From a virus: a DNA stretch of 25,386 nt. Below, in pieces: positions 990 to 22,933 of this stretch. Below the pieces are notes generated by a model. That model had not been told where the DNA came from, ran no database searches, and saw only the letters and a list, made by a program, of their open reading frames with translations. Both the position numbers and the translations under genes were made by a program. Every line of letters starts with the position of its first letter. Position 1 is the first letter of the stretch. The stretch spans positions 1 to 25,386 of the IMG/VR virus record IMGVR_UViG_3300048987_000007. One strand, 5' to 3'.

Positions 990-1162
990 CCCTTTCGGCG
1001 GCCTTCCTCGACCAGCTGCGCGAGCGGACGGCGTTGTCGGCCCTGATCGGCCGGACGGTCAAGCTGACCAGGGCCGGGCGGGAGCATAAGGGCTGCTGCC
1101 CGTTCCACGCCGAGAAGAGCGCCAGCTTCACGGTGAGCGACGAGAATCGGGGCGTCGTATGA
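986..1162 (+). CDS. Truncated DnaG-type CHC2 zinc-finger fragment
   Basis: Fifty-eight residues closely follow the N-terminus of bacterial DnaG primases (FLDQLRERTALSALIGR, then VKLTRAGREHKGCCPFHAEK, then SFTVSDENRG). The first half of the zinc site is present (Cys38, His41), but the reading frame stops where the second half, normally an HCFGCG-like strand, should follow. A complete CHC2 domain is about 90-100 residues. Start and stop both overlap neighbours by 4 bp (986-989 and 1159-1162), so it is still translated in register with the operon. It may be a remnant left by recombination next to the Prim-Pol gene, or a minimal accessory peptide; a remnant is more likely because zinc could not be fully coordinated. 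Confidence 0.75.
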   Translation: MTLSAAFLDQLRERTALSALIGRTVKLTRAGREHKGCCPFHAEKSASFTVSDENRGVV

Positions 1163-8293: not shown

Positions 8294-9789
8294 ACAGGCT
8301 CGATCGCGCAATCGCAGCGGTGGCGCCGCGCGCTGCTCTTCGGCGCGAACTGGCGCGTGTCCAATTGCGCCAAGTGGAGAGGATCGGCAGCCGCGCGCAG
8401 ACGCGCCGGCGACCCGACGAGTGGCGGATCAACGACCCGGCAACCCGGCGCTGGGAGGCCCGTCAGGGCAAGCCGATGAACCGCTACGACCGGGAGATGC
8501 TCCGGCACGTGTTCGAAACCAACCCGTTCGCGGTCAAGGTCAAGGGCTCGCTGCTTAACAACCTGATCGGCTACGGGATCACCGGCACGGTCAAGGGCAC
8601 CAAGGCGGTGCAGTCGGCATGGACCGACTGGATCGAGGTCTGCGACTATGACGGCGTCTGCGACCTCTATGGGCTGCAGGAGCTGATCGCCAATATCTGG
8701 CTCGACGATGGCGAGGCGTTCGTCGTCACCCGGATCGTGCCGGGCGCTGCCGTGCATCCGCTGCGCCTGCAGGTGTTCGACGCCGACCAGCTCGACACAG
8801 CGGCCGCCCAGGCTGGCGTGAGGATGCGCGACGGGATCGAATATGGGACTGACGGTCGCCCGGCCTTCTACCATTTCAAGCGCAGCCGCGAGATCGAGGC
8901 TTACGGCGACCCGATCCGGGTGCCGGCGGACCAGGTGATCCACCTGTTCCACCGCAAGCGCGCCGGACAATGGCGCGGCCGCCCGCTGTTCGAGTCGGTG
9001 CTCGACGTCGTCGGCGACATTGACGACTATCTCGAAGCCGAGGGGGTCAGGAAGAAAATCTCCGCCTGCTTCGTCGGCTTTCGCGCTCCCTCGCTCGAGG
9101 GCGACGACCCCGCCATGGGCCGGATCAACCCGGACGGCACGCCGCTGGAATCGGCGGACGAACCGCCGGAGGAGAGCTTTTATCCGGGGATGATCATCAA
9201 CGGCCGCCCAGGCGAGCAGATGACCTTCGGAGATCCTAAGGTGGACGCGGGCATCGACGATTACATGCGCTGGGGCGGCCTGAGGATGGCAGCGGGCGCG
9301 CAGACGACCTACGAGCGCGCGACTGGCGACCTCTCGAAGGTCAATTATTCGAGCTACCGGGCCGGCGACCTGGAATTCCAACGCTTTGTCGGCCGGATCC
9401 AGTGGCTGCTGATCATCCCGAAGCTGCTGCGCCGGATCGAGCGCGCCTTCGTGGAGGCGGGCTATGTGACCGGCCTGATCGGCCAGCGAGCCCCGATGTT
9501 CAAGTGGACGCCGCCCCCGTTCGGCTCGGTCGACCCGGGCAAGGACATCAAGGCCAAGCGCGAACAGGTCGCGGCGGGCGTCGAGAGCCTTCGCAACCTG
9601 GCCGCCGAGCTCGGTTACGACCTCGACGACCTCAGCGACGAGATCGTGGCCGATCTCGCGATGCTCAAGAAGAAGTTCGAAGACGCTGGAATGGAGGCGC
9701 TGGTGCCGCAGCTGTTGGCATCGCTCCTTGGGCTCAATGCAAACACAGGAGGAGGCCAGAATGCTCCCGTCACCGAGCCCGCCGCCTGA
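8290..9789 (+). CDS. Portal protein, lambda family
   Basis: A 499-residue portal protein, the dodecameric ring at one head vertex through which DNA enters. It starts with GTG at 8290, overlapping the gpW stop by 4 bp. Family features include the N-terminal WRINDPATRRWEARQ segment, RHVFETNPFAVKVKGSLLNNLIGYGI, DGEAFVVTRI, VIHLFHRKRAGQWRG and the hallmark GDLSKVNYSSYRAGDLEFQR near residue 350. The C-terminal part (AKREQVAAGVESLRNLAAELGYD) is the usual helical crown. Length is normal for the family. The 3' end overlaps the capsid fusion gene by 29 bp. Confidence 0.95.
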   Translation: MNRLDRAIAAVAPRAALRRELARVQLRQVERIGSRAQTRRRPDEWRINDPATRRWEARQGKPMNRYDREMLRHVFETNPFAVKVKGSLLNNLIGYGITGTVKGTKAVQSAWTDWIEVCDYDGVCDLYGLQELIANIWLDDGEAFVVTRIVPGAAVHPLRLQVFDADQLDTAAAQAGVRMRDGIEYGTDGRPAFYHFKRSREIEAYGDPIRVPADQVIHLFHRKRAGQWRGRPLFESVLDVVGDIDDYLEAEGVRKKISACFVGFRAPSLEGDDPAMGRINPDGTPLESADEPPEESFYPGMIINGRPGEQMTFGDPKVDAGIDDYMRWGGLRMAAGAQTTYERATGDLSKVNYSSYRAGDLEFQRFVGRIQWLLIIPKLLRRIERAFVEAGYVTGLIGQRAPMFKWTPPPFGSVDPGKDIKAKREQVAAGVESLRNLAAELGYDLDDLSDEIVADLAMLKKKFEDAGMEALVPQLLASLLGLNANTGGGQNAPVTEPAA

Positions 9790-11761
9790 GCGCAAGCTCA
9801 CCGCGCCGACGATGATCAGGGCCGCCGAAGTGCGGCCCTCTTCTTATCAGGAGTCCGACAACTCGATCGAGATCGCCTGGTCGACCGGCGCCGCGGGGTT
9901 GCGCTTCGACTGGTACGACGGCGAATATTATATCGAAGAGCTGTCGATGGACCCCAGCGCGGTCCGCCTCGAACGGCTGAATGCCGGGGCATGCCTGCTC
10001 GACAGCCACCAGGATTATACGCTGGACGCCGTGCTTGGGTCGGTTGTGCCCGGGACGGCCCGAATCGAAGCGGGAGTCGGCATCGCCCGAGTTCGCCTGG
10101 CGACGACGCCCGATGTCGCGGACACCAACCAGAAAATCATCGACGGCCACATCCGGTTCGTCAGCGTTTCCTACCAGGTCCACACCTATGTTCGCACGGA
10201 GACGGAGGGCGAGAAGCCGCACCTCCTCGCCACCGATTGGGAGCCGGTCGAGCTCTCGATGGTGGCCGTGCCCTTCGACGCCGGCGCGCAGGTCCGCGCC
10301 CGGTCCGCCCAGCAGGGGGGCCACCCCTGCACCATCCGCGGCACGACCGCTACTTCCGAGGAGACTGTCATGTCCGAGGTAAACCCCGCTCCCGTCGTGG
10401 AGACGAATCCCGCTCCCGTGGTGGAGCCGAGCCCCGCTCCCGTCGTGGAGCCGGAGCAGCCGGAGGCCCGGAGCGGCAGCCCGGTCACCATCAGGCGGAT
10501 CCGCGAGGTCTGCGCCCGCGGCCTCGGCGCCGATTTCGCGCTCGAGCTGATCGAGCGCCACGAGAAGAGCCCGATGACCGAGGCCGATCTCAACACGGCC
10601 CTGGTCGCGGAATATGCGACGACCCGCTCGGCGCCGCATATCGACAATTCGGTGACGATCACCGCCGACGAGAAGGACAAGTACCGGGCCGCCCTCACCG
10701 GCGCCCTGGTCGTCCGGATGACCGACAGCAACGAGACCCCAAAGGACGGCGGCGAGCTGTTCGGCCACATGACCACCCGCGAGATCGCGCGCGACTATCT
10801 CGTCCGCGCGGGCATCAAGGGCCATGCGGCGATGGGCCCGTTCGAGCTGGTCTCGGCGGCACTCGGGATGGCGCGCCACGGCGCCCAGACCAGCAGCGAC
10901 TTCGCCATCGCGCTCCAGCAGGCTGGCAACCTCGCGATCGTCGACGCCTACCAGACGGCGGACGACGAGCAGTGGCGCCAGCTCTCCCGCGAGAAGAGCG
11001 CGAACGACTTCCGCCCGAATCCGGTCGCCGGCCTGACCGGCACCCCCGAATTCCTGGTCGTCGAGGAGAATGGTGAATATACCTACGCCTCGTTCCAGGA
11101 CATCGGCGACAGCTTCAAGCTGTGGACCTCTGGCCGGATCATCTCGCTGTCGCGCCAGCTGATCATCAACGACCAGCTCGGCCTGTTCGGCGACATGGCC
11201 GGCCATCTCGGCCGCGGCGCGGCGCTGCACGAGGCGAACGCGGTCTGGGCGACCCTGCTCGGCAATCCGACGCTCGCCGATGGGATCGCCCTGTTCCATG
11301 CGAGCCACGGCAATCTCGCCGGGTCCGGCACCGCGCTCTCGGTCGCGTCGCTCGGCGCGGCTCGGGCGGCGATGCGCAAGCAGAAGGACCGCGACGGCGT
11401 CACCCCGATCAACGTGACTCCGAAGTTCCTGGTCATCGGTCCGGACAACGAGACGGCCGCCGATCAGCTGCTCACCCTGATCATGGCCACCCAGGTCGGG
11501 TCGGCGGTGCCGGCCTTCATCCGCACCCTGACCGTGGTCGTCGATCCCAGGATCACCGACTACAGCTGGTATCTGCTCGCCGATCCGGCACGGGTGCCGG
11601 TGCTGCAGCACGCTTACCTTCGCGGCCAGCGTGGCATCTACACCGACACGCGGGTCGGCTTCGAGGTGGACGGCGTCGAATATAAGGGCCGCCTCGACTT
11701 CAGCGCCAAGGCCGCGGGCTACCAGGGCGCCTACAAGAACCCCGGCGCCGCGCCCTCCTAA
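9761..11761 (+). CDS. Prohead protease / major capsid protein fusion
   Basis: A 666-residue fusion. ATG 9761 follows AGGAGGAGG at 9747-9755. Residues 1-190 are a prohead-protease domain with the putative catalytic His83 (CLLDSHQDY) and Ser135 (FVSVSYQV), followed by PVELSMVAVPFDAGAQV. Residues 204-240 are a Pro/Val/Glu repeat linker. Residues about 245-666 are the major capsid protein: an SPMTEADLNTALVAEYATTRSAP scaffold-like helix, then the coat domain with GNLAIVDAY, LWTSGRIISLSRQLIINDQLG, ANAVWATLLGN and VTPINVTPKFLVIGP. The N-terminal part should be removed by self-cleavage during maturation. A strong internal start at 10370 suggests a separate capsid product as well. Confidence 0.92.
   Translation: MLPSPSPPPERKLTAPTMIRAAEVRPSSYQESDNSIEIAWSTGAAGLRFDWYDGEYYIEELSMDPSAVRLERLNAGACLLDSHQDYTLDAVLGSVVPGTARIEAGVGIARVRLATTPDVADTNQKIIDGHIRFVSVSYQVHTYVRTETEGEKPHLLATDWEPVELSMVAVPFDAGAQVRARSAQQGGHPCTIRGTTATSEETVMSEVNPAPVVETNPAPVVEPSPAPVVEPEQPEARSGSPVTIRRIREVCARGLGADFALELIERHEKSPMTEADLNTALVAEYATTRSAPHIDNSVTITADEKDKYRAALTGALVVRMTDSNETPKDGGELFGHMTTREIARDYLVRAGIKGHAAMGPFELVSAALGMARHGAQTSSDFAIALQQAGNLAIVDAYQTADDEQWRQLSREKSANDFRPNPVAGLTGTPEFLVVEENGEYTYASFQDIGDSFKLWTSGRIISLSRQLIINDQLGLFGDMAGHLGRGAALHEANAVWATLLGNPTLADGIALFHASHGNLAGSGTALSVASLGAARAAMRKQKDRDGVTPINVTPKFLVIGPDNETAADQLLTLIMATQVGSAVPAFIRTLTVVVDPRITDYSWYLLADPARVPVLQHAYLRGQRGIYTDTRVGFEVDGVEYKGRLDFSAKAAGYQGAYKNPGAAPS
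10370..11761 (+). CDS. Nested major capsid ORF from an internal start
   Basis: Inside the fusion gene, in the same frame, GAGGAGA (10358-10364) lies five bases before ATG 10370. Translation from here would give a 463-residue protein consisting of the repeat linker, scaffold-like helix and capsid domain, with no protease. The position is exactly at the domain border, as expected if two ancestral genes became fused while the second kept its start, or if nested products set the protease-to-capsid ratio as in lambda C/Nu3. The signal is clear; use in vivo is inferred. Confidence 0.5.
   Translation: MSEVNPAPVVETNPAPVVEPSPAPVVEPEQPEARSGSPVTIRRIREVCARGLGADFALELIERHEKSPMTEADLNTALVAEYATTRSAPHIDNSVTITADEKDKYRAALTGALVVRMTDSNETPKDGGELFGHMTTREIARDYLVRAGIKGHAAMGPFELVSAALGMARHGAQTSSDFAIALQQAGNLAIVDAYQTADDEQWRQLSREKSANDFRPNPVAGLTGTPEFLVVEENGEYTYASFQDIGDSFKLWTSGRIISLSRQLIINDQLGLFGDMAGHLGRGAALHEANAVWATLLGNPTLADGIALFHASHGNLAGSGTALSVASLGAARAAMRKQKDRDGVTPINVTPKFLVIGPDNETAADQLLTLIMATQVGSAVPAFIRTLTVVVDPRITDYSWYLLADPARVPVLQHAYLRGQRGIYTDTRVGFEVDGVEYKGRLDFSAKAAGYQGAYKNPGAAPS
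10382..10453 (+). repeat. Three tandem 24-bp repeats encoding NPAPVVEx
   Basis: Units at 10382-10405, 10406-10429 and 10430-10453 encode NPAPVVET, NPAPVVEP and SPAPVVEP. They form an extended, protease-accessible hinge between the protease and capsid halves. Copy number may vary by slipped replication. Confidence 0.85.
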
Positions 11762-13856: not shown

Positions 13857-15077
13857 ATGGACTCGATCATCCGCCCCGGTAACGGCGCCATCCTGTTCAA
13901 GCTGCAGAGCGTCGAGGGGACCGCCGTCGTTCCGTCCGCCTCGGCCGACGCCGTGCCCTACGAGGAAGGCAGCGTCAGCTTCAACGGCCCCTACAAGGCC
14001 GAGGACAGCGGCGAATCGACCGGTTCGTTCGACGCCGGGGCGCCGCTGATCGTCGGCCAGCCGGTCACCTTCCGCTTCCGCGCCCGCCTCAAGGGCGCCA
14101 ATGCCACCTACACGTCGAGCGTCAAGCCGCCCCATCACCAGGCGTTCGCCGCCTGCGGCGTGCGCGGCTTCTTCACTGCGGCGATCGCCGCGGCCGCGCT
14201 GGCGGCCGGCTCCGGCACGACCGCGACGCTCGGCACCGGCTTCACCGGCACCGCGCAGCTCTACAAGGGCATGCCGCTGCTGCTGTCCGGCACGGCCGCC
14301 GGATCGGTGCCGCTGATCACCGATTACAGCGCTTCCAAGGTGGCGACGCTGAGCGACACCTTCTCGCCGGCGCTCGACGCGACGACTCTCGCCGCCATCC
14401 CGGCCAACTGGACCTATGCCCCAACCTCGCCGGCGGACGGCACCGCGCGGGCGACCGACCATCCCTGCGGCACCCTCTATTATTACGAGGATGGCACGCT
14501 CTACCAGTTCATGGACGTGCGCGGGAAGTTCGACGAGGACGGGGAGACGGCAAAGCCGGGGTTCGCCGCCTTCGAGATGACCGGCATCTTCGTCTCGCGC
14601 ACCGACGCGGCGATCCCGAGCGGCATCGTTCTTCCGAGCCAGTCGGCGCCGACCCTGGTCCAGGGCACCGGCTATGCCGCGCTCGCGGTCAACCGCAAGG
14701 GCCTGCCGATCTCGAAATGGTCGCTCTCGACCGGCCAGGCGATCACCAGCCCCGAGGATCCGAACACGACCTACGGCTTCGCGGCCGGGCAGATCGGCGA
14801 CCGCAAGGTGATGTTCGGCGCCGATCCACTGGCGACCCTGGTCGCGACTCGCAACACGCTCGCCGAGATCGCGGCCTTCACCCAATATCCGATCGCGCTC
14901 CGCTTCGGAGCGACGGCCGGCAACCGCTGGTCGCTGCTCGTGCCGGTCGCTCAGCCGGTCAGCGAGGATCCGGGCATGCGCGGCACCTACCGGAGCCACG
15001 ACCTCAACTTCCAGGCGATCCCGAACGGCAAGGATGCGCAGACCCGCGACTGCCCGTTCATCATGTGCTTCTATTGA
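13857..15077 (+). CDS. Major tail tube protein
   Basis: A 406-residue beta-rich protein with GAGGAGAG before its ATG. It begins GNGAILFKLQSVEGTAVVPSA, continues VGQPVTFRFRARLKG, and has repeated G/T/S-rich strands, typical of phage tail tube proteins that stack as hexameric rings. A central segment (about 105-165, LAAGSGTTATLGTGFTGTAQL to LITDYSASKVATL) looks like an inserted surface domain. GTLYYYEDGTLYQFMDVRGKF and FEMTGIFVSRTDAA belong to the core fold. Position before the assembly chaperone and tape measure is diagnostic. The stop codon sits inside a large inverted repeat. Confidence 0.85.
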   Translation: MDSIIRPGNGAILFKLQSVEGTAVVPSASADAVPYEEGSVSFNGPYKAEDSGESTGSFDAGAPLIVGQPVTFRFRARLKGANATYTSSVKPPHHQAFAACGVRGFFTAAIAAAALAAGSGTTATLGTGFTGTAQLYKGMPLLLSGTAAGSVPLITDYSASKVATLSDTFSPALDATTLAAIPANWTYAPTSPADGTARATDHPCGTLYYYEDGTLYQFMDVRGKFDEDGETAKPGFAAFEMTGIFVSRTDAAIPSGIVLPSQSAPTLVQGTGYAALAVNRKGLPISKWSLSTGQAITSPEDPNTTYGFAAGQIGDRKVMFGADPLATLVATRNTLAEIAAFTQYPIALRFGATAGNRWSLLVPVAQPVSEDPGMRGTYRSHDLNFQAIPNGKDAQTRDCPFIMCFY

Positions 15078-15137: not shown

Positions 15138-15851
15138 ATGATCAGAACATCGAAGGCGCCGGTCGCGTGGCCGGTGCCGTGGAATGCCGGGCAGCAGGTC
15201 TTCTTCCGCCCGGGCGACGTGATCGAGCGGGGGGAGTTCGAGAGCGACCTGGCCGGCGATTACGGCGCCGGCCGGGTCTATTCGTTCCAGCTCAGCGAGG
15301 CCTTCGCGGCCGGGCTGCTGGCGGTGCTGCGGGACAGCCCCGACGATGCGGCGCGGCTGATCGAATGGGAAGGCCTCGACAGCCGCGCCGAGAAGCTCGC
15401 CCCCGACGAGGCGGCGGCGGTGACGGCGGCGCGGCAGACGGTCTCGGAGCATTGGCCGCCTTACCGCGTCCTCGCCAAGCGGCTGGAGCGCCGGCGGACG
15501 ATGACGCCGATTGCCGCCTTCCGGCGCTACTGCGCCGGCTGGGAGGGCGAGGGATTGCCAAAATATGAGGCCGGCGGTGACGGGTTCGTCACGCTCGACC
15601 TCATGCGGCGAATCGACCCCGTTCTGGTCGAAGCGGGGGGCATGTTCGCCTATTCGCTCCAATATGCGGCGGACCAGGAGGGAAACTCCGCTGCGCCTTC
15701 GAAGCCCGTCGAAGGCCGCAGGACTTCCAATTCGGGTCCCCGGAAGGCGGCTGGGAAATCGCGGGGCAAGAGTGGCTCGAGAACCCGCTCGTCGCGCTCC
15801 CGCCCTGGGTCTTCGCGGCCGTCGACCTCTGGCTCGACTGCCGGCGATTGA
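15138..15851 (+). CDS. Tail assembly chaperone, short form (gpG-like)
   Basis: A 237-residue protein from ATG 15138 (AGGGATGA upstream). Residues 1-180 are well-behaved and fit tail chaperones: WPVPWNAGQQVFFRPGDVIE, SFQLSEAFAAGLLAVLRDSPDDAARLIEWEG, a helical WPPYRVLAKRLERRRTMTPIAAFRRY and LDLMRRIDPVLVEAGGMF. After residue 183 the zero frame turns into a Ser/Arg/Pro/Gly string with no domain character, while the -1 frame becomes protein-like. The switch coincides with a GGGAAAC slippery site. The protein should coat the tape measure and recruit tube subunits, as lambda gpG does. Confidence 0.75.
   Translation: MIRTSKAPVAWPVPWNAGQQVFFRPGDVIERGEFESDLAGDYGAGRVYSFQLSEAFAAGLLAVLRDSPDDAARLIEWEGLDSRAEKLAPDEAAAVTAARQTVSEHWPPYRVLAKRLERRRTMTPIAAFRRYCAGWEGEGLPKYEAGGDGFVTLDLMRRIDPVLVEAGGMFAYSLQYAADQEGNSAAPSKPVEGRRTSNSGPRKAAGKSRGKSGSRTRSSRSRPGSSRPSTSGSTAGD
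15680..15716 (+). promoter_or_regulatory. -1 programmed ribosomal frameshift signal
   Basis: In the chaperone frame bases 15680-15686 read G GGA AAC, a canonical X XXY YYZ heptamer close to lambda's G GGA AAG. An 8-base spacer is followed by a perfect 8-bp stem, GCCTTCGA (15695-15702) and TCGAAGGC (15709-15716), with loop AGCCCG. A slip moves translation into the frame that is open to TGA 15974-15976. All three elements of a frameshift cassette are present at the place where lambda-like phages need one. Confidence 0.85.
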
Positions 15852-15976
15852 CCGGCGCCGGCGGAATGGGCGGCAGGGGGCCCTCGATCCTTCCGTGCGC
15901 GGGCGGGGCGGGGGACCAGCCCGCCGCGCTGATGGATGCGTTCGCCATGCTGGACGCATGGTCCGGGGAGAGCTGA
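15686..15976 (+). CDS. Frameshift extension of the tail chaperone (gpGT-like T domain)
   Basis: After a -1 slip at GGGAAAC, 96 more codons are read, from CTC 15686 to TGA 15974-15976, giving a 279-residue fusion with the first 183 residues of the chaperone. The segment includes GGWEIAGQEWLENPLVALPPW, then VFAAVDLWLDCRRL and a final helix ALMDAFAMLDAWSGES. This is good globular composition and resembles the DUF1799-type/T-domain partners of tail chaperones, though that match is tentative. There is no ribosome binding site with a start at its beginning, so independent translation is unlikely. The T domain binds the tail tube protein in lambda. The next gene starts directly at its stop. Confidence 0.75.
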   Translation, partial: LRCAFEARRRPQDFQFGSPEGGWEIAGQEWLENPLVALPPWVFAAVDLWLDCRRLTGAGGMGGRGPSILPCAGGAGDQPAALMDAFAMLDAWSGES

Positions 15977-16627
15977 GTGGCCGTCGACATCGCCTTCGAG
16001 ATCGCCAACGCCCGCGAAGCCGGCGACCTGGTCGCGCGCCGGGTGCTGACGGCCGGTACGCAGACCATCGCCGAGGCGACTCGCGGCCTCGAGCAGGGGC
16101 TCGAGGCGCTGACGCGCGACATGGTCGGCGGACGGCTGTGGCGGGCCTGGAAGAGCAATGTCTATCCCGAGAGCCTCGGACCGGCGCGGGATCCGGTCGG
16201 CGAGGTGTTCGTCAACGGCGGCGAGCGTTCGCGTGGCACGATGGTCTTCTTCACGCAGGCTGGACGCATCCAGCCGCGCAATGGCGCATTGCTTTGGATT
16301 CCGCTTCCGGCCGCCGGGTCGAAGGGGCGGGATCGCCTGCTGACGCCGGCGGAGTGGGAGGCGAAGCACGGCGTGAAGCTGAGGCCGGTGTTCCGGCGCG
16401 GCCGGGCGCCTTTGCTGGTGCTCGACCAGGGTGTGCTGTCGGGCCGCCGGCAGACCGGCGTGCCGAACACGCTGCGCCGGCGGAATCGCGGGCGTGGGGA
16501 TGCGACCATCCCGATGTTCGTCGGCCTGCCGAGCGTCGCCTTCGCCAACCGCTTCGCGGTCGAGCCCGAGGTGGCCCGCTGGGCCGCGCAGCTCGGAACG
16601 ATCTTCGCGCGGAGGATCAGGGGGTGA
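15977..16627 (+). CDS. DUF6441-like tail protein
   Basis: A 216-residue protein starting with GTG 15977 right after the chaperone-extension stop, with GGGGAGAG five to six bases upstream. Features include an N-terminal helical part (IAFEIANAREAGDLVARRVL), a helix (LEQGLEALTRDMVGGRLWRAWKSNVYP), then FFTQAGRIQPRNGALLWIPLP, a basic AEWEAKHGVKLRPVFRRGRAPLL segment and the C-terminal PMFVGLPSVAFANRFAVE. I associate this pattern and its place between tail chaperone and tape measure with DUF6441, related in position to minor tail proteins such as lambda gpZ. Exact function is unknown. Confidence 0.7.
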   Translation: MAVDIAFEIANAREAGDLVARRVLTAGTQTIAEATRGLEQGLEALTRDMVGGRLWRAWKSNVYPESLGPARDPVGEVFVNGGERSRGTMVFFTQAGRIQPRNGALLWIPLPAAGSKGRDRLLTPAEWEAKHGVKLRPVFRRGRAPLLVLDQGVLSGRRQTGVPNTLRRRNRGRGDATIPMFVGLPSVAFANRFAVEPEVARWAAQLGTIFARRIRG

Positions 16628-16667
16628 TGGGGTTGCCGAGCGAGGGTTTCGCGGTCATCCTCTGACT

Positions 16668-16910
16668 ATGAGGAGATGCTTCCTTGTTGCCGTCTTGCTG
16701 CTCGCCGCCTGCGGTTCGCCTGACGCCGAGGCTCTGAGCGCGGAGAATCAGTACGAGATCATCGAGCAGGCGAACGGATCAGATACAGAGAAATGTGTAG
16801 CAGCAGGCCGGGTGGCGGATGCTTGGCTGAAGCGCGAGAACAAGGATGAGTACGAGAGGTGGAAGCTTACCCGGGACGTGTACTGTGATTTGCCTCGGCT
16901 GAGGGATTAG
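16668..16910 (+). CDS. Small secreted lipoprotein, candidate moron
   Basis: An 80-residue protein with a type II signal peptide: MRRCFLVAVLLLAACGS, lipobox LAAC at residues 12-15, lipidated Cys15 and Gly at +2. The mature part (about 66 residues) is acidic and has two further cysteines (43 and 73) that could form a disulfide. It starts 40 bp after the DUF6441-like gene, does not resemble tail proteins, and has lower GC. Phage lipoproteins of this size can block superinfection by masking receptors; this is inferred from type, not from homology. The start lacks a strong ribosome binding site. Convergent with the minus-strand gene at 16867. Confidence 0.65.
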   Translation: MRRCFLVAVLLLAACGSPDAEALSAENQYEIIEQANGSDTEKCVAAGRVADAWLKRENKDEYERWKLTRDVYCDLPRLRD

Positions 16911-17073
16911 GCCCGGACGGCGCCGTCGAAGAGAGTCCGAAGCGAACAAGCCGCCTTATCGCCTCGGCGCGGGAAGGCAAATCCTCCTGTTGGCGCCGCC
17001 ATCCATCAATCGCGACGATCAGGCTCGGCTCGATCGCTAGGATGAAACGCTCGGTCTTCAGCTCGGTGGACAT
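16867..17073 (-). CDS. Ribbon-helix-helix DNA-binding protein
   Basis: A 68-residue minus-strand protein with a ribbon-helix-helix fold in residues 5-50: the strand TERFILAIEPS, helix LIVAIDGWRRQQEDLP, turn SRAEA and helix IRRLVRFGL. Proteins like this are repressors or antitoxins that bind palindromic operators as dimers. No toxin gene adjoins it on the same strand. It is divergently placed from the gene starting at 17271, with a promoter and an imperfect palindrome between them, so it may regulate that promoter and its own. Its 3' end overlaps the lipoprotein 3' end. The last 20 residues are low-complexity. Confidence 0.75.
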   Translation of the reverse strand: MSTELKTERFILAIEPSLIVAIDGWRRQQEDLPSRAEAIRRLVRFGLSSTAPSGPNPSAEANHSTRPG

Positions 17074-17098
17074 GCATTGAGTGTAGCGGAGTAATGTC

Positions 17099-17127
17099 TT
17101 GCATGCCAGTTATGCCGCTTATATAAG
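17099..17127 (+). promoter_or_regulatory. Candidate sigma-70 promoter of the accessory cassette
   Basis: TTGCAT (17099-17104) and TATAAG (17122-17127) are separated by exactly 17 bases, in a short AT-richer stretch. The -10 overlaps the palindromic TTATATAA. It would drive the 17271 and BRO genes independently of late transcription. Confidence 0.5.
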
Positions 17128-17133
17128 ACAGGC

Positions 17134-17159
17134 CGCCGGGGTGCTGTAACACCTCGGCG
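17134..17159 (+). promoter_or_regulatory. Imperfect palindrome just downstream of the promoter
   Basis: CGCCGGGGTG (17134-17143) and CACCTCGGCG (17150-17159) form a 10-bp stem with one G-T wobble and a CTGTAA loop. It sits at about the predicted transcription start, an ideal operator position for a repressor such as the neighbouring ribbon-helix-helix or BRO protein. It could also be an mRNA leader hairpin. Confidence 0.45.
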
Positions 17160-17270
17160 ACCCTAACCCGCGCTGGAGTATGGTCCATGCAGGCTGAAGA
17201 CAGAGATAGCATCGCTTGTTGCCCCGGTCGTTCCCAAAACGGCGCTTCGTCGCGAACTTCGGTTCCGGTC

Positions 17271-17528
17271 ATGAGGTCACTTGGCCGCCGCGCCTTGCTT
17301 CGGAGCCTGGGCCTGGCACCGCTGGCGTTTGCGGCGCCCGCTCTGGCAGCGGTGCCGGCGCCTGAGAAACCCTGGAAGGAGCGGCTGGCCGATCTGTTGG
17401 CCGAGAAGATGCCGCGGGGCGAGCGGGGAGAAGAAGCGGGGGATTATGCCGCCTGGGTGATATTCGCCATCTGGGTCGACGAGGGAAAGAAAATCATCAG
17501 GACGGCCGACGGGAAGAGGGTGGCATGA
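17271..17528 (+). CDS. Small exported protein with twin-arginine-like signal
   Basis: An 85-residue protein starting MRSLGRRALLRSLGLAPLAF and continuing AAPALAAVPAP: a GRRALLRS twin-arginine-like n-region, a hydrophobic core and an AxA-type cleavage site near residue 28. The mature 57 residues are charged (EKPWKERLADLLAEKMPRG, then WVIFAIWVDEGKK), with a short hydrophobic patch. No family recognised. ATG 17187 (GGAG 8 bases upstream) is an alternative start adding 28 residues of odd codon use. Its stop overlaps the BRO start (ATGA), so the two are co-translated. It is probably accessory rather than structural. Confidence 0.55.
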   Translation: MRSLGRRALLRSLGLAPLAFAAPALAAVPAPEKPWKERLADLLAEKMPRGERGEEAGDYAAWVIFAIWVDEGKKIIRTADGKRVA

Positions 17529-18292
17529 GCGCGGTGGCATTGCAGAGCTTCGGCTTCGGCGAGCAACTCGTCCGGGTCGTCGACCAGGCCGGAAGCATCT
17601 GGTTCGTTGGCAAGGACGTCTGCTCGGCGCTCGAGATCGGCAATAGCCGCGAGGCGCTTCGGCGCCTCGAAGAGGATGAAAAGGGTGTCATTACTACTGA
17701 CACCCTTGGCGGCCCCCAGGAGGTCGCGATCATCTCGGAGAGCGGCCTCTACGCGCTGATCTTCCGTTCGCGGAAGCCGGTGGCCGTCCAGTTCCGCAAA
17801 TGGGTTACCGGCGAGGTGTTGCCGGAGATACGGCGTACTGGCTCGTATCAGATGTCCCACGCGGCGAACGACCGGCGCACAATCGACCTGGAAGGCGCGC
17901 TGGGGACGGCGGACGAGCGGCATACGATCAAGACCGCGATGCTGATGGTGCAGATGTACAACGACCTTTACGGGCAGCAGGCCGGCCGCGACATCGCGAC
18001 CAAGCTCGGCTTCCCGGTTCCCCGCGTTCACCTGACGCCTGCCAACCCCGCCGCGGCGAACGGCTTTGCTCCGGTGGAGGGAGACATACATCAATGGAGC
18101 CAGGCGGCGGGGCTCAAGCCGAGCCGTCGGGACGCGACGCACCTCAGCGACCTGTATGCGAGCTATTCGCGCTGGTGCGGAGTGACCGGGGCGATCCCGA
18201 TGCACCCGGACAAGTTCAAGGCGGCGATGGTGATGCTCTTCAACCACGAGGAGCATCCCGAAATGATCAGGGTGGTGCTGTGTCGCCAGTGA
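17525..18292 (+). CDS. BRO-family phage antirepressor
   Basis: A 255-residue protein. Residues 8-115 are a Bro-N domain: VRVVDQAGSIWFVGKDVCSALEI, LEEDEKGVITTDTLGG, VAIISESGLYALIFRSRKP and FRKWVTGEVLPEIRRTGSY, all at the expected spacing. Bro-N domains bind DNA and occur in phage antirepressors. The C-terminal region (from about 120) is different from common KilA-C or ANT partners; its DLYASYSRWCGVTGAIPMHPDKF part recalls the winged-helix tail of phage D5-type primases. Inside the Bro-N coding region are two consecutive perfect hairpins. It lies in the accessory cassette, far from any visible immunity region. Confidence 0.9.
   Translation: MSAVALQSFGFGEQLVRVVDQAGSIWFVGKDVCSALEIGNSREALRRLEEDEKGVITTDTLGGPQEVAIISESGLYALIFRSRKPVAVQFRKWVTGEVLPEIRRTGSYQMSHAANDRRTIDLEGALGTADERHTIKTAMLMVQMYNDLYGQQAGRDIATKLGFPVPRVHLTPANPAAANGFAPVEGDIHQWSQAAGLKPSRRDATHLSDLYASYSRWCGVTGAIPMHPDKFKAAMVMLFNHEEHPEMIRVVLCRQ
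17651..17707. repeat. Two tandem perfect hairpins within the BRO gene
   Basis: GAGGCGC (17651-17657) pairs with GCGCCTC (17662-17668) around a TTCG loop, and AAGGGTGTCA (17681-17690) pairs with TGACACCCTT (17698-17707) around a 7-base loop. On the minus strand the second is followed by a run of T, so it could end minus-strand transcripts from the 18325-18588 gene. It might also be an autoregulatory operator. Confidence 0.55.
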
Positions 18293-18324
18293 GCGCTGAT
18301 CGCAGCTGGCAGGTGATTGCCGCG

Positions 18325-18588
18325 CTACAACTCGGGGGGTTTCTGCCGATTGGCCGGGCGGGGCTTGGATATGAGGTTCGCGCGGGCGAGGATCCTGAGC
18401 ATTGTCTCGTTTGCGACCCCAGTGCTCCGCTCGTCGACTATCCCCGGGAACCGGCCGGAAAGATTGGCGGGCCAAACCCGCTCAAAAGTGCCCCTGATCG
18501 TTGAAAGGTCGGTTACGTCTTTCGAAAGTAGAAGTTCAAGGATCACTTCGATTGCAGCAAACCGACCGGCAAGCTCACTATCATCCAT
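18325..18588 (-). CDS. Minus-strand hypothetical protein
   Basis: An 87-residue protein read from ATG at 18588 (AGGGGG shortly upstream on that strand). It begins MDDSELAGRFAAIEVILELL, a probable amphipathic helix, followed by LSKDVTDLSTIRGTFERVW and a basic C-terminus (ANLISKPRPANRQKPP). No family recognised. It runs against its neighbours, beginning just before the strong plus-strand terminator, which marks it as part of the accessory cassette rather than the tail operon. GC is lower than in the surrounding late genes. Confidence 0.5.
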   Translation of the reverse strand: MDDSELAGRFAAIEVILELLLSKDVTDLSTIRGTFERVWPANLSGRFPGIVDERSTGVANETMLRILARANLISKPRPANRQKPPEL

Positions 18589-18650
18589 GGTCGCCCCCTG
18601 CTGATTGGCTGAGCTAGTCGAAGTTTTACACAAGAGTCGAGTCAATCACC

Positions 18651-18676
18651 GGCCGCCTTCGGGCGGCCTTTTCTTT
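18651..18676 (+). terminator. Strong intrinsic terminator before the tape measure gene
   Basis: GGCCGCC (18651-18657), loop TTCG, GGCGGCC (18662-18668), then TTTTCTTT. This is a textbook rho-independent terminator for plus-strand transcripts from the accessory cassette. It lies only 16 bases before the tape measure start, so late transcription must bypass it by antitermination or restart. Confidence 0.85.
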
Positions 18677-18691
18677 GGGAGCTGATGCAGG

Positions 18692-21600
18692 ATGGGAAGC
18701 GCCGCCGCTGACATCGTCGCCCGGCTCACGCTGGCCGGCGAGCAATTCTCGTCCGAGAATGCGCGCATCTTCGCGGAGATGGAGAAGCGCGCCCAGGACA
18801 CGGCGGGCCGGACCAAGACCTTCTTCGAATCGAGCTTCAACGAAGTCGAGCAGATCGCCAAGAAGGCGCTGTCCCTGCCTCGCACCTCGGCGGGCACGCT
18901 CGACCTCGGCGTCGGTCAGTACAAGCAGGCGGCGGCCGAGGCGCAGCTTCACGCGGCGGCGGTGCGCCAGGTCGCGGTCGCGGCCGAGGCGGCGGCCAAA
19001 TCGACCGGCGACGACAGCGAGGCGACGCGGATCTACGTCCAGGCCGCCCGCGCCGCGGCGATCGAGGCCGAGCGGGACGCCAAGGGCAAGGCCGACCAGG
19101 CGGCGGCGATGGGCCAGCTGCAGGAGTCTCTGAACGCAACGGCCGCGCCGCTCCAGGCCCATGCCGACGGGCTCGAGCGGGCGCACGGCGCCTCCTACAA
19201 CCTCCGCCTCGGCCAGATGGAGCTGATGCACTCGACGCGGTCGTTCTTCGACATGCTCGTCGCCGGCCAGTCGCCGCTGGTCGCCTTCTCGATGGAGTTC
19301 GGGCGCATCGCCCAGGGCATCGCCACGATGGCCGCCGGCATGGATGCCGGCGGAGCCTCGTCGGAGAAGCTCGGCACCGCCCTCGGCACCGAGGCGGTCG
19401 CGACCGAGAAGAGCGCGGCGGCGAGCGGCGCCGACGCCGCTGCGAAGCGCGGCCAGGCCACCGCGGCGGCCGAGGGCAGCGTCGCGACCGGGGCGAACAC
19501 CGTCGCGACCGGCGCCAACGCGACCGCCCATGAAGCGGCGACGGTCGCGACCGTCGAGCATGCCGCCGCCCAATCCCGCTTCGCCGCCCTCATTTCCGGC
19601 CCGTGGGGCATGGCGATCCTCGGCGGCGTCACCGTCCTCGGAATGCTGATTCCCAAGCTGATGGGCGGCGGCGACGAGGTCGAGAAGCTGACCGACAAGA
19701 TGCGGGAGAATTACCGCCAGACCGGCCTCAACCAGCAGGCGACCGACATCTGGAAATCCTCGACCGAAGGCCTGATCGAGAGCTTGCGCGAGCTCGACAA
19801 GCAGACCGCGCACCTCAACCAGTCGCAGGCCCAGGCCCAGCAGGCGGCAATCGACGAGGCGCAGAAGAAGATCGATGATCTGCAGCAATCTCTCACGAGG
19901 GATCGAACCCATCTTAACGAGCTGGAGCGCCGGCGTGCCGAGTTACGGGGCCAAGCCGCCGCTGGGGACGAGGGCGCTGCGGCTGCGTTGATTGAATTAC
20001 GTCAAGTAAACAAGGACATTGCCACCACTGAGAATCTCATCATAGAGGGGCAGCGGCGAATCGCTGGTGGATATCAGGATCTGAGGGAGGCTCAGATCGC
20101 CAAGGATCGTCGCGAGGTGGCCGACGCGACCGATGCCGTCGCCGTGGCGAACGCTAAGCTGACAGCGACCGAAGATCGCCTCACCGAGGCCCGCCGCCGC
20201 GGCGACTTGGGCGAGGCGGAGTACAAGAAGCAGTTGCTCGACGCGCAGCGCCTTCGCGACAAGGAAGTGAAGGCCGCCCAGGATGCGGAGCGCGAGGCGC
20301 GCGACAAGAAGATCATCCTCGCGCGCCCGGTCGATGGCCCGATCACCTCGGGCTACGGCGCCCGCCCTCGGCCCAAAGAGGGCGCTTCGACCTGGCATCC
20401 CGCGATCGACTTCGGCGTCGGGATCGGAACGGCCGTCCGCGCCCAAGCGGACGGCGTGGTGATCAAGACCGGCATCGTCGGCAAACTCGGCCGTGTCGTG
20501 TGGATCGATTACGGGAACAAGGTCATCGCCGAGTTCGGGCACCTCAGCCAGGAACTCGTCAGCGAAGGGCAGGTCGTCCACGCCGGGCAGGTCGTCGCGC
20601 GGTCCGGCAATACCGGCCTCTCCACGGGCCCGCACCTCGACTATCGGCTGAAGGTTCAGGGCGCCTACGTCAACCCGCTGACCACCAAGGTCAATGTCGG
20701 CAAGGGCGTCGGCGATGCGATGGGCGATTACGAGCGCGAGCAGGCCGCCGCCGAGGAAAGGCGCCAGCACCAGGCGGAGCAGCTCGCCGAGACCCGGGAG
20801 CGGATCCTCGCGTCGCTGAGGGATGAGTTCAAGCAGACGGCCTTGAACGCCCAGGCGGATTCGCTTCGCGCGCGGGGGTTGACCGAGCAGGCGGACACGA
20901 TGGTCGAGGTGGCGCGCCTGGCGCGGGAGCGCGCCGACGAGCTCGCCAAGCTGCCGGAATCCGAGCGCGTTGTAACGCCTGCGCTCGTCGACCAGCTCGC
21001 CCTCTACCGCCAGCAGGCGGACGCCGTCGCCCAGCTCATGGTGGCGAACGGCTCGCGAGCGGCGCTGACCGAGCAGCAGAAGGCCGCCGAGGAGGCTCTC
21101 AATGCACAGATGCTCGCGCGCTTCGCGACGGCGAAGGGGCTGGTCAAGACCGCCGCCGACGAGCTCGCGATCAAGGACGCCCAACTCGACGTCGGCAACC
21201 GCCTCGGCGCGGCCGCTCAGCAGGCGGCGGAGGCCACGCGCGAGCAGAAGCGGGCCGACGAGGAGCGGCAGCGCTACCTCAAGCACCAGCAGGATGAGAT
21301 GGCCCGCCGCGAGCGGGAGCAGATCTCCACCCTGGCCGATTTCTACGAGCGAGCCTTCCGCAGCGGGGGCAAGAGCATCGTCCAGGACTTCAAGGACGAG
21401 ATGCTCGGCGTGATCGCCCAGATCGCCGCGCGATGGACGCTGGCGCTGCTCAGCGGCCAGCAGACCAGCCTGCCCGGCATCCTCTCCCAGATGGGCGCGA
21501 CGGCGAACAACGGCGGCTACGATTCCAAGGGCATTTTCGGCATGCTGATGGGGTTCGGCCAGGGTGGAGGCGGCGGCGTCCAGGCGACGCAGGTCGGCGA

Positions 21601-22933
21601 CTTCAACGGCATCCCGCTGCTCAATTTCGGCCTCGGCCAAGGCGGCGACTTCGCGGCGGCCGGCGGCGTGGCCGGCGGCGCCGCCACGGGTGGCCTGGGC
21701 GGCTTGGGCGGTCTGGCCGGCCTGGGCGGCGCCGGCTCCGCCCTGCCGGCGGCCGGCGCGGCGATGGCGGCCAGCATGCTGCTCAACAAGATTTTCGGGA
21801 TCAAGGATCCGACCGGCGGCCTGCTCGGCCCGATCAGCGCGCCGATCGTCAACTCGTTCATCCCCGCCAAGCGCGGCTCGGCGACGCTCGACTTCACCAA
21901 CGGCGCACTCGGCGTCGGCGCGACTCGCGGCAACAGCAGCTCGCGGATCGACACGTCGAAGGGCGACGTCGGCCAGCTCGCCGACATCCTCAACCGGATC
22001 GCGGAGCAGTTCGACGGCCACGTCTCGAAGGTCGGTGGCATCTCGTTCGGAGTCCGCGACGGCAATTTCCGGCTCGACCCGACCGGCCAGGGCATCACCA
22101 AGACCAAGAACGGCGCGCTGGACTTCGGCAAGGACGAGCAGGCGATGCTCCGCAAGGGCGTCGAGCTGATGCTCGAGCGCGGCGTCATCGACGGGCTCAG
22201 CGACGCCGAGAAGAAGATCCTCTCCTCCGGACAGGACATCGACAAGGCGCTGACCAAGGCGCTGTTGATCCACGACATCCCCAAGCGGCTGATGGAGCAT
22301 CTCGACCCGGTCGGCGCCGCGATCGACGCGTTGAACAAGAAGTGGGCCGACACGATCGACGCGCTGAACGAGGGCGGCGCCTCGACCGAGCAGATGGCCG
22401 ATGCGCAGAAGCTCTACAAGATGGAGCTCGCCGACGTGAAGAATGCGACGCAGGAGGCATCGGCCGGCCTCAAGTCGTTCCTCGACAGTCTCAATTTCGG
22501 CTCGGCCTCGCCTTACTCGCTGCACGACCAGGAGGCGATGGCGAAGGCGGCGCTCCAGCCGTTCCTCGACCAGATCGACGCCGACGGCGGGCAGTCGATC
22601 GACAAGCAGAAGTACCAGGCCTCGGCGCAGAGCTTCCTCGACATCGAGCGGCAGATCTACGGCTCGACCAAGGGCTTCTTCGACGCGATGGACATGATCC
22701 AGGCCTATACGGGCAAGGCGATCAGCGCGATCGACAACGCCAAGCCGATCCGCACCTACGCGGACCCGTTCGCCGAAAAAACCGCCGACAATACGACGAC
22801 CGCCAACGAGATCGCCGCGCAGCACACCGGCCTGCTGCTGCAGATCCGCGACGCGGTGACCGCGCTGGGGGGCGCGCCGGCCGGCGGCTTCATCGGCGGC
22901 GGACGCGGCTTCGCGGCGGCGATGAGCGCCTGA
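18692..22933 (+). CDS. Tape measure protein with embedded M23 peptidase domain
   Basis: A 1413-residue tape measure that sets tail length. The N-terminal 280 residues are Ala-rich helices; a hydrophobic segment near 297-325 (GMAILGGVTVLGMLIPKL) could insert in the membrane. Coiled-coil helices span about 340-545. Residues about 550-680 are an M23-type peptidoglycan hydrolase domain: H569-x3-D573 (WHPAIDFG), H617 in FGHLS, and GPHLDYRL with Asp650 where the family has the second His of HxH. More coiled coil (about 690-890) and a Gly/Ala-rich hinge (about 940-1030) follow. It should open the cell wall during DNA entry. GGGAG precedes ATG 18692. Confidence 0.93.
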   Translation: MGSAAADIVARLTLAGEQFSSENARIFAEMEKRAQDTAGRTKTFFESSFNEVEQIAKKALSLPRTSAGTLDLGVGQYKQAAAEAQLHAAAVRQVAVAAEAAAKSTGDDSEATRIYVQAARAAAIEAERDAKGKADQAAAMGQLQESLNATAAPLQAHADGLERAHGASYNLRLGQMELMHSTRSFFDMLVAGQSPLVAFSMEFGRIAQGIATMAAGMDAGGASSEKLGTALGTEAVATEKSAAASGADAAAKRGQATAAAEGSVATGANTVATGANATAHEAATVATVEHAAAQSRFAALISGPWGMAILGGVTVLGMLIPKLMGGGDEVEKLTDKMRENYRQTGLNQQATDIWKSSTEGLIESLRELDKQTAHLNQSQAQAQQAAIDEAQKKIDDLQQSLTRDRTHLNELERRRAELRGQAAAGDEGAAAALIELRQVNKDIATTENLIIEGQRRIAGGYQDLREAQIAKDRREVADATDAVAVANAKLTATEDRLTEARRRGDLGEAEYKKQLLDAQRLRDKEVKAAQDAEREARDKKIILARPVDGPITSGYGARPRPKEGASTWHPAIDFGVGIGTAVRAQADGVVIKTGIVGKLGRVVWIDYGNKVIAEFGHLSQELVSEGQVVHAGQVVARSGNTGLSTGPHLDYRLKVQGAYVNPLTTKVNVGKGVGDAMGDYEREQAAAEERRQHQAEQLAETRERILASLRDEFKQTALNAQADSLRARGLTEQADTMVEVARLARERADELAKLPESERVVTPALVDQLALYRQQADAVAQLMVANGSRAALTEQQKAAEEALNAQMLARFATAKGLVKTAADELAIKDAQLDVGNRLGAAAQQAAEATREQKRADEERQRYLKHQQDEMARREREQISTLADFYERAFRSGGKSIVQDFKDEMLGVIAQIAARWTLALLSGQQTSLPGILSQMGATANNGGYDSKGIFGMLMGFGQGGGGGVQATQVGDFNGIPLLNFGLGQGGDFAAAGGVAGGAATGGLGGLGGLAGLGGAGSALPAAGAAMAASMLLNKIFGIKDPTGGLLGPISAPIVNSFIPAKRGSATLDFTNGALGVGATRGNSSSRIDTSKGDVGQLADILNRIAEQFDGHVSKVGGISFGVRDGNFRLDPTGQGITKTKNGALDFGKDEQAMLRKGVELMLERGVIDGLSDAEKKILSSGQDIDKALTKALLIHDIPKRLMEHLDPVGAAIDALNKKWADTIDALNEGGASTEQMADAQKLYKMELADVKNATQEASAGLKSFLDSLNFGSASPYSLHDQEAMAKAALQPFLDQIDADGGQSIDKQKYQASAQSFLDIERQIYGSTKGFFDAMDMIQAYTGKAISAIDNAKPIRTYADPFAEKTADNTTTANEIAAQHTGLLLQIRDAVTALGGAPAGGFIGGGRGFAAAMSA

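Follow-up and report, generated by a model that had tools for sequence, protein, structure and literature searches.

Probable programmed −1 ribosomal frameshifting, with AAC as A-site codon, in the tail-assembly-chaperone gene of a probable sphingomonad siphophage

Results

Organization of the locus

The window analysed here is a stretch of 25,386 nt of viral DNA (IMG/VR record IMGVR_UViG_3300048987_000007, positions 1 to 25,386). At positions 15138–15976 it carries a putative tail-chaperone ORF that contains a slippery heptamer, followed by a short spacer and a stem-loop, and is overlapped by a second coding region in the −1 frame (Table 1). A sequence-only reading of the window had described an in-frame G GGA AAC, an 8-base spacer and a perfect 8 bp stem-loop, and all three proved exact: the arms of the stem, GCCTTCGA and TCGAAGGC, are 100 % complementary over 8 bp and enclose a loop of 6 nt. 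The same reading had placed the end of the −1 frame at the start of the next gene, and the terminal TGA of this frame is indeed followed directly by the GTG with which the next ORF begins. A Shine–Dalgarno-like AGGAGG at 15677–15682 overlaps the start of the heptamer.

Table 1. Features of the putative frameshift cassette and its neighbouring genes (positions in the window)
Feature	Position	Strand	Basis or remark
Probable major tail (tube) protein	13857..15077	+	Position, synteny; directly upstream in most relatives
Zero-frame tail-chaperone ORF, gpG-like, 237 aa	15138..15851	+	ATG 15138 to stop 15849–15851
Conserved chaperone domain	Residues 1–183 of the zero-frame ORF		Extends up to the slip site
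Slippery heptamer GGGAAAC	15680..15686	+	In frame as G GGA AAC
Spacer from heptamer to stem, 8 nt	15687..15694	+	Register the same in relatives
Stem 1, 5′ arm, GCCTTCGA	15695..15702	+
Stem 1, 3′ arm, TCGAAGGC	15709..15716	+
−1-frame T-like domain, 96 codons	15686..15976	+	TGA 15974–15976; without a start codon of its own
Zero-frame tail past the slip site, 54 codons	15687..15851	+	Length not conserved
Loop bases GCCCG, possible 5′ arm of pseudoknot stem 2	15704..15708	+	Suggestive
CGGGT, possible 3′ arm of pseudoknot stem 2	15733..15737	+	Suggestive
DUF6441 protein, between chaperone and tape measure	15977..16627	+	PF20039, E 2.6e-12; synteny
Tape-measure protein with M23 peptidase domain	18692..22933	+	PF01551, E 6.2e-23; length, position

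The order probable tube protein, chaperone, T domain, DUF6441 protein and tape measure recurs across the loci described below. The protein in the tube position has no credible Pfam or PHROG match, so its name is taken from its position, while the M23 domain of the tape-measure protein occupies residues 569–662 and is the part covered by the PHROG tape-measure matches. A variable island (16628–18691) that encodes a Bro-N domain protein (17525–18292) separates the DUF6441 gene from the tape-measure gene; in relatives this island seemingly ranges from about 0.1 kb (L006) to about 3 kb, sometimes with a Bro-N gene. In L022, L025, L026 and L042, about 350–820 nt separate the tube-like gene from the chaperone gene, suggesting an inserted gene. 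An ORF at 9728–11761 (677 residues) looks, by eye from its translation and position, like a fusion of prohead protease and major capsid protein.

When 35 members of either the chaperone domain or the T domain were compared with Pfam, PHROGs, NCBIfam and PDB sequences, no credible match was obtained. Models of the two domains made with AlphaFold2 were confident, with a pLDDT of 93.9 for the chaperone domain and 83.1 for the T domain. Foldseek returned no significant match in the PDB, and its viral matches were weak (probability 0.85–0.98, E > 0.06, TM-score < 0.46), although putative tail assembly proteins were among the best of them. As there is no match to a named family, the identification as a chaperone rests on position and layout.

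Relatives of the cassette

A query with the fusion protein against 50,697 phage records gave no match, and a first genome scan with N-terminal patterns found no relatives. The chaperone query returned one close viral relative, L001 (54 % identity), and later L005; L001 has the site A AAA AAC and a −1 frame clearly homologous to that of the window. With the −1-frame (T) domain as query, 43 viral loci were obtained, 42 of them usable, and genome assemblies yielded a further 11 usable loci, labelled as Sphingomonas, Sphingobium, Sphingorhabdus or Sphingomonadales. L048 and L060, which were not clear relatives, and L002, a chance match, were left out. The collection therefore comprises 54 loci (53 further loci and the window), or 39 non-redundant sequences after thinning at 90 % identity, and the two-frame layout is common to all of them. 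Since the search patterns were drawn from the T domain, conservation of the QPAALMD motif reflects in part how the loci were chosen; neither the heptamer nor the chaperone domain entered into these patterns.

The slip site

The heptamer singled out in the window is kept at the junction in the form [A or G]3-AAAC in 35 of the 39 non-redundant sequences, as AAAAAAC in 22 and as GGGAAAC in 13 (the window and 12 others), which places AAC in the A site of 35 sequences, the window included, and AAG in the A site of none. The others have AAAAAAA, AAATTTT, CCCTTTG and the non-canonical GACTTTT, one each, so that a canonical X_XXY_YYZ heptamer is found at the junction in 38 of 39 loci, again with the window included. 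The loci without one are L043 and L044, where GACTTTT (L043:4288–4294 and L044:4480–4486) is unusual in that perfect re-pairing is possible for the A-site codon only. The codons that make up the heptamer differ from the normal codon choice of these genes, in which AAA accounts for 18 % of Lys, GGA for 9 % of Gly and AAC for 57 % of Asn codons. On a tree from which the two slip residues were left out, the GGG and AAA forms have interchanged 8–11 times by parsimony and at least five times on well-supported branches, the window (GGG form) and its sister L009 (AAA form) being one such pair. In each interchange all three bases are replaced, the one that precedes the codon included, from which it follows that the identity of the homopolymer is kept and not the amino acid. 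A search across the family for an upstream Shine–Dalgarno-like stimulator gave a weak excess (z −2.9).

The main ORFs of the window contain only 14 in-frame X_XXY_YYZ heptamers in 6613 codons, and in just three of these is the A-site codon AAA or TTT; a perfect 8 bp stem (loop of 3–8 nt) lies 5–10 nt downstream of 0.4 % of window positions. The combination of frame, place and stem is thus rare, unlike the bare string GGGAAAC, which occurs four times in the window against 2.45 expected. The stem itself is stable but not extraordinary when compared with shuffles (z −2.1 over 46 nt, z −0.6 over 74 nt). At the level of sequence, decisive proof of the predicted frameshift signal comes from the relatives and not from window statistics. 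A second in-frame AAAAAAC, at 2256–2262 inside a 984 aa ORF (1159–4113), is probably due to chance.

Downstream RNA structure

Every possible 9-pair stem in the 58 nt that follow the heptamer (631 stems) was scored over the family against synonymous shuffles that keep the −1-frame protein, a null in which zero-frame constraint and kinship are not modelled. The register of stem 1 ranks first of the 631 (z 11.2 with 35 sequences, z 8.7 with the 30 more divergent ones), and its covariation exceeds that of all slid registers and of all 500 shuffles (0/500 reach its score). The stem that had been picked out from the window is, therefore, also the best-supported candidate among the homologues. It is absent or imperfect in many relatives, with 62 % of cells paired. 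RNAalifold found no single consensus structure over the family, and the folding energy of the 62 nt downstream showed no overall excess when compared with synonymous shuffles (mean z −0.02), perhaps as a consequence of different structures in different relatives, and pair-register tests took the place of folding energy. Nine sequences, all of them with AAAAAAC, have instead a long hairpin (L type) with 13–14 of 14 pairs formed, and this association has a Fisher p of 0.01 after stricter thinning, kinship being uncorrected. The long hairpin gave no covariation signal over the whole set.

In the window, the stimulatory structure may be an H-type pseudoknot and not a plain hairpin, a refinement of the proposal above rather than an alternative to it, and one to which we would give somewhat less than an even chance. 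Bases in the loop of stem 1 can pair with a segment further downstream to form a stem 2 of five pairs, one of them G–U, and the resulting geometry, with stems of 8 bp and 5 bp and loops of 1 nt and 16 nt, is plausible. All pairs of stem 2 are present in 7 of 13 S-type sequences, where 1.5 would be expected, and in 14 of the 30 sequences taken together, where 3.7 would be; and where the loop has GCCC instead of GTCC, the partner is GGG and not GGA. On the other hand, several stem 2 pairs are fixed by the protein, the relatives with the longest hairpin (L031, L033, L035 and L039) lack stem 2, and the excess of complete stems is seen in L-type relatives too. Because neither zero-frame constraint nor kinship enters the null, we put the pseudoknot forward as a candidate structure.

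The second frame and the zero-frame tail

The −1-frame domain of 34 relatives is 47–62 % identical to that of the window, and the chaperone domain is less conserved (27–54 % identity in homologues). It had been proposed that the zero frame loses protein character at the slip site and the −1 frame gains it, and codon-position variability does switch frame at the heptamer: in the 30 nt before it, variability is highest at position 3 of the zero frame (0.59 versus 0.40 and 0.52), and over the 92 codons after it, at position 3 of the −1 frame (0.54 versus 0.35 and 0.33). The Ser/Arg-rich zero-frame tail to which the sequence-only reading had drawn attention does run for 54 codons past the slip site in the window, but it is not a conserved feature. 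Its length varies from 0 to 62 codons among relatives, and in three non-redundant relatives (L014, L023 and L029) the zero-frame stop follows the heptamer immediately, so that the tail is best taken for a by-product of the coding in the −1 frame.

If the second frame were an independent gene that had its own start or was expressed by translational coupling, the heptamer would be incidental. The −1 frame of the window is open upstream of the heptamer, from 15581, as this explanation would have it, but the stretch of the −1 frame that leads from the upstream stop to the conserved domain contains no ATG, GTG or TTG, either in the window or in most relatives, and the heptamer is conserved, with its X bases changing together. 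Homologues with a conserved start for the second ORF and no heptamer, the case that had been named as contrary to frameshifting, are not what we found, and we consider a separate gene very improbable.

Discussion

Tail-chaperone frameshifting is a textbook case, and we interpret the locus as an instance of it, namely programmed −1 ribosomal frameshifting of the lambda G/GT type, in a tail-assembly-chaperone gene carried by what is probably a sphingomonad siphophage, with a probability of about 0.95. This reading, put forward from the window alone, is supported in the relatives by conservation of the heptamer, by the lack of a start codon in the second frame of most of them and by the top-ranked stem. 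We infer the slippage and its efficiency, as well as the host of the window phage and the roles of the proteins, and the fusion is a predicted product. Most ribosomes would remain in the zero frame, producing the chaperone domain plus a dispensable tail. A minority would be delayed by the downstream RNA structure while GGA occupies the P site and AAC the A site, and would slip back by one base, the tRNAs re-pairing on GGG and AAA. These ribosomes would then translate 96 more codons, giving a chaperone–T fusion that ends at the next gene. If the roles match those in lambda, the tape-measure protein would acquire a coat of the short form, and the less abundant long form would bring in the tail-tube protein through its T domain (PMC5009743).

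Several points count against frameshifting: neither domain matches a named family, many relatives have an imperfect stem or none, L043 and L044 have no canonical heptamer, and AAC in the A site is far less slippery than AAG in E. coli (PMC5009743, PMC4066793). In that organism A_AAA_AAC falls far short of A_AAA_AAG as a slip site (PMC5009743), and for high slippage ZZN must be all purine or all pyrimidine (PMC4066793); the window, with its AAC, departs from the efficient E. coli-type −1 motif, in which the A-site codon is AAG or AAA. The frames might also be joined by transcriptional slippage on a run of A residues, given that A AAA AAC, with six to seven consecutive A, is common among the relatives. 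We regard this as scarcely credible, however, as GGGAAAC in the window and 12 other non-redundant sequences contains no run longer than three, the X_XXY_YYZ phase is kept and the stem lies at ribosomal spacing. The window comes from one virus record, but a sequencing error or gene decay has a negligible probability as the cause of the frame break, since 53 other loci, including 11 from genome assemblies, have the break at the corresponding position.

As in the G/GT system of phage lambda (G GGA AAG), there would be two products of a gene that lies between the tail-tube and tape-measure genes, with a slip into the −1 frame where the chaperone domain ends, a T frame without its own start and G_GGA as the P-site half of the heptamer. 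The differences are that the A-site codon is AAC here and AAG in lambda, that a conserved downstream stem is present here, that a DUF6441 gene and a variable island precede the tape-measure gene here, and that a sequence relation between the two systems is undetectable. The HK97 tail assembly chaperone (PDB 2ob9) is alike in presumed role and gene position, and its Foldseek E value of 2.2 is meaningless.

The sequence-only reading had made the AAC A-site codon part of a specific prediction. The codon is not without precedent, as such sites have been predicted before: GGGAAAC in Colossus and AAAAAAC in phiCbK, in the pre-tape-measure chaperone gene of these Caulobacter phages (PMC3556154), GGGAAAC for gp18/gp19 of Burkholderia phage KL1 (PMC3483164), and G_GGA_AAC in tail genes of halovirus HCTV-1, AAC sites being found in haloviruses (PMC5009743). 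The Caulobacter phages share with the present family the same two heptamers and an alphaproteobacterial host, but the fusion query of the 50,697 phage records showed no sequence match to them. KL1 and HCTV-1 have the identical heptamer in tail genes and differ in their hosts. In KL1, too, a gene separates the chaperone from the tape measure, and its zero frame stops right after the site, as is the case here in only three non-redundant relatives.

The unusual point is, rather, the uniform use of AAC in the family. Lambda-type frameshifting in tail chaperones was already known and AAC slip codons had been predicted; what is new is an undescribed chaperone family, its uniform use of AAC, the exchangeable downstream RNA structures and a possible pseudoknot. 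The family should also let annotators recover the T domain, which in most members has no start codon and is without a match among named families.

Measurements of bacterial slip sites come mainly from E. coli, where AAC scores poorly. As 35 divergent sequences keep AAC, including every one found in a sphingomonad assembly, a dependence of slippage on host tRNA becomes testable. ARAGORN detected both tRNA-Lys(CUU) and tRNA-Lys(UUU) in five of the seven host genomes examined, and in the other two a CUU pattern was found, unconfirmed by ARAGORN. If AAG is read by a dedicated CUU tRNA, it could slip poorly. An explanation that we offer as doubtful is that sphingomonad phages use A-site AAC, of the animal-virus kind, clade-wide because host tRNA-Lys(CUU) would make the E. 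coli-type AAG non-slippery, and that the stimulatory RNA has been repeatedly exchanged between short hairpin, pseudoknot and long hairpin. Phages KL1 (AAC) and AH2 (AAG) share a host genus, and for this reason the part assigned to the CUU tRNA is a lead only. Loss of queuosine was also considered as a reason for the use of AAC and was rejected, as tgt is present in all seven host genomes tested.
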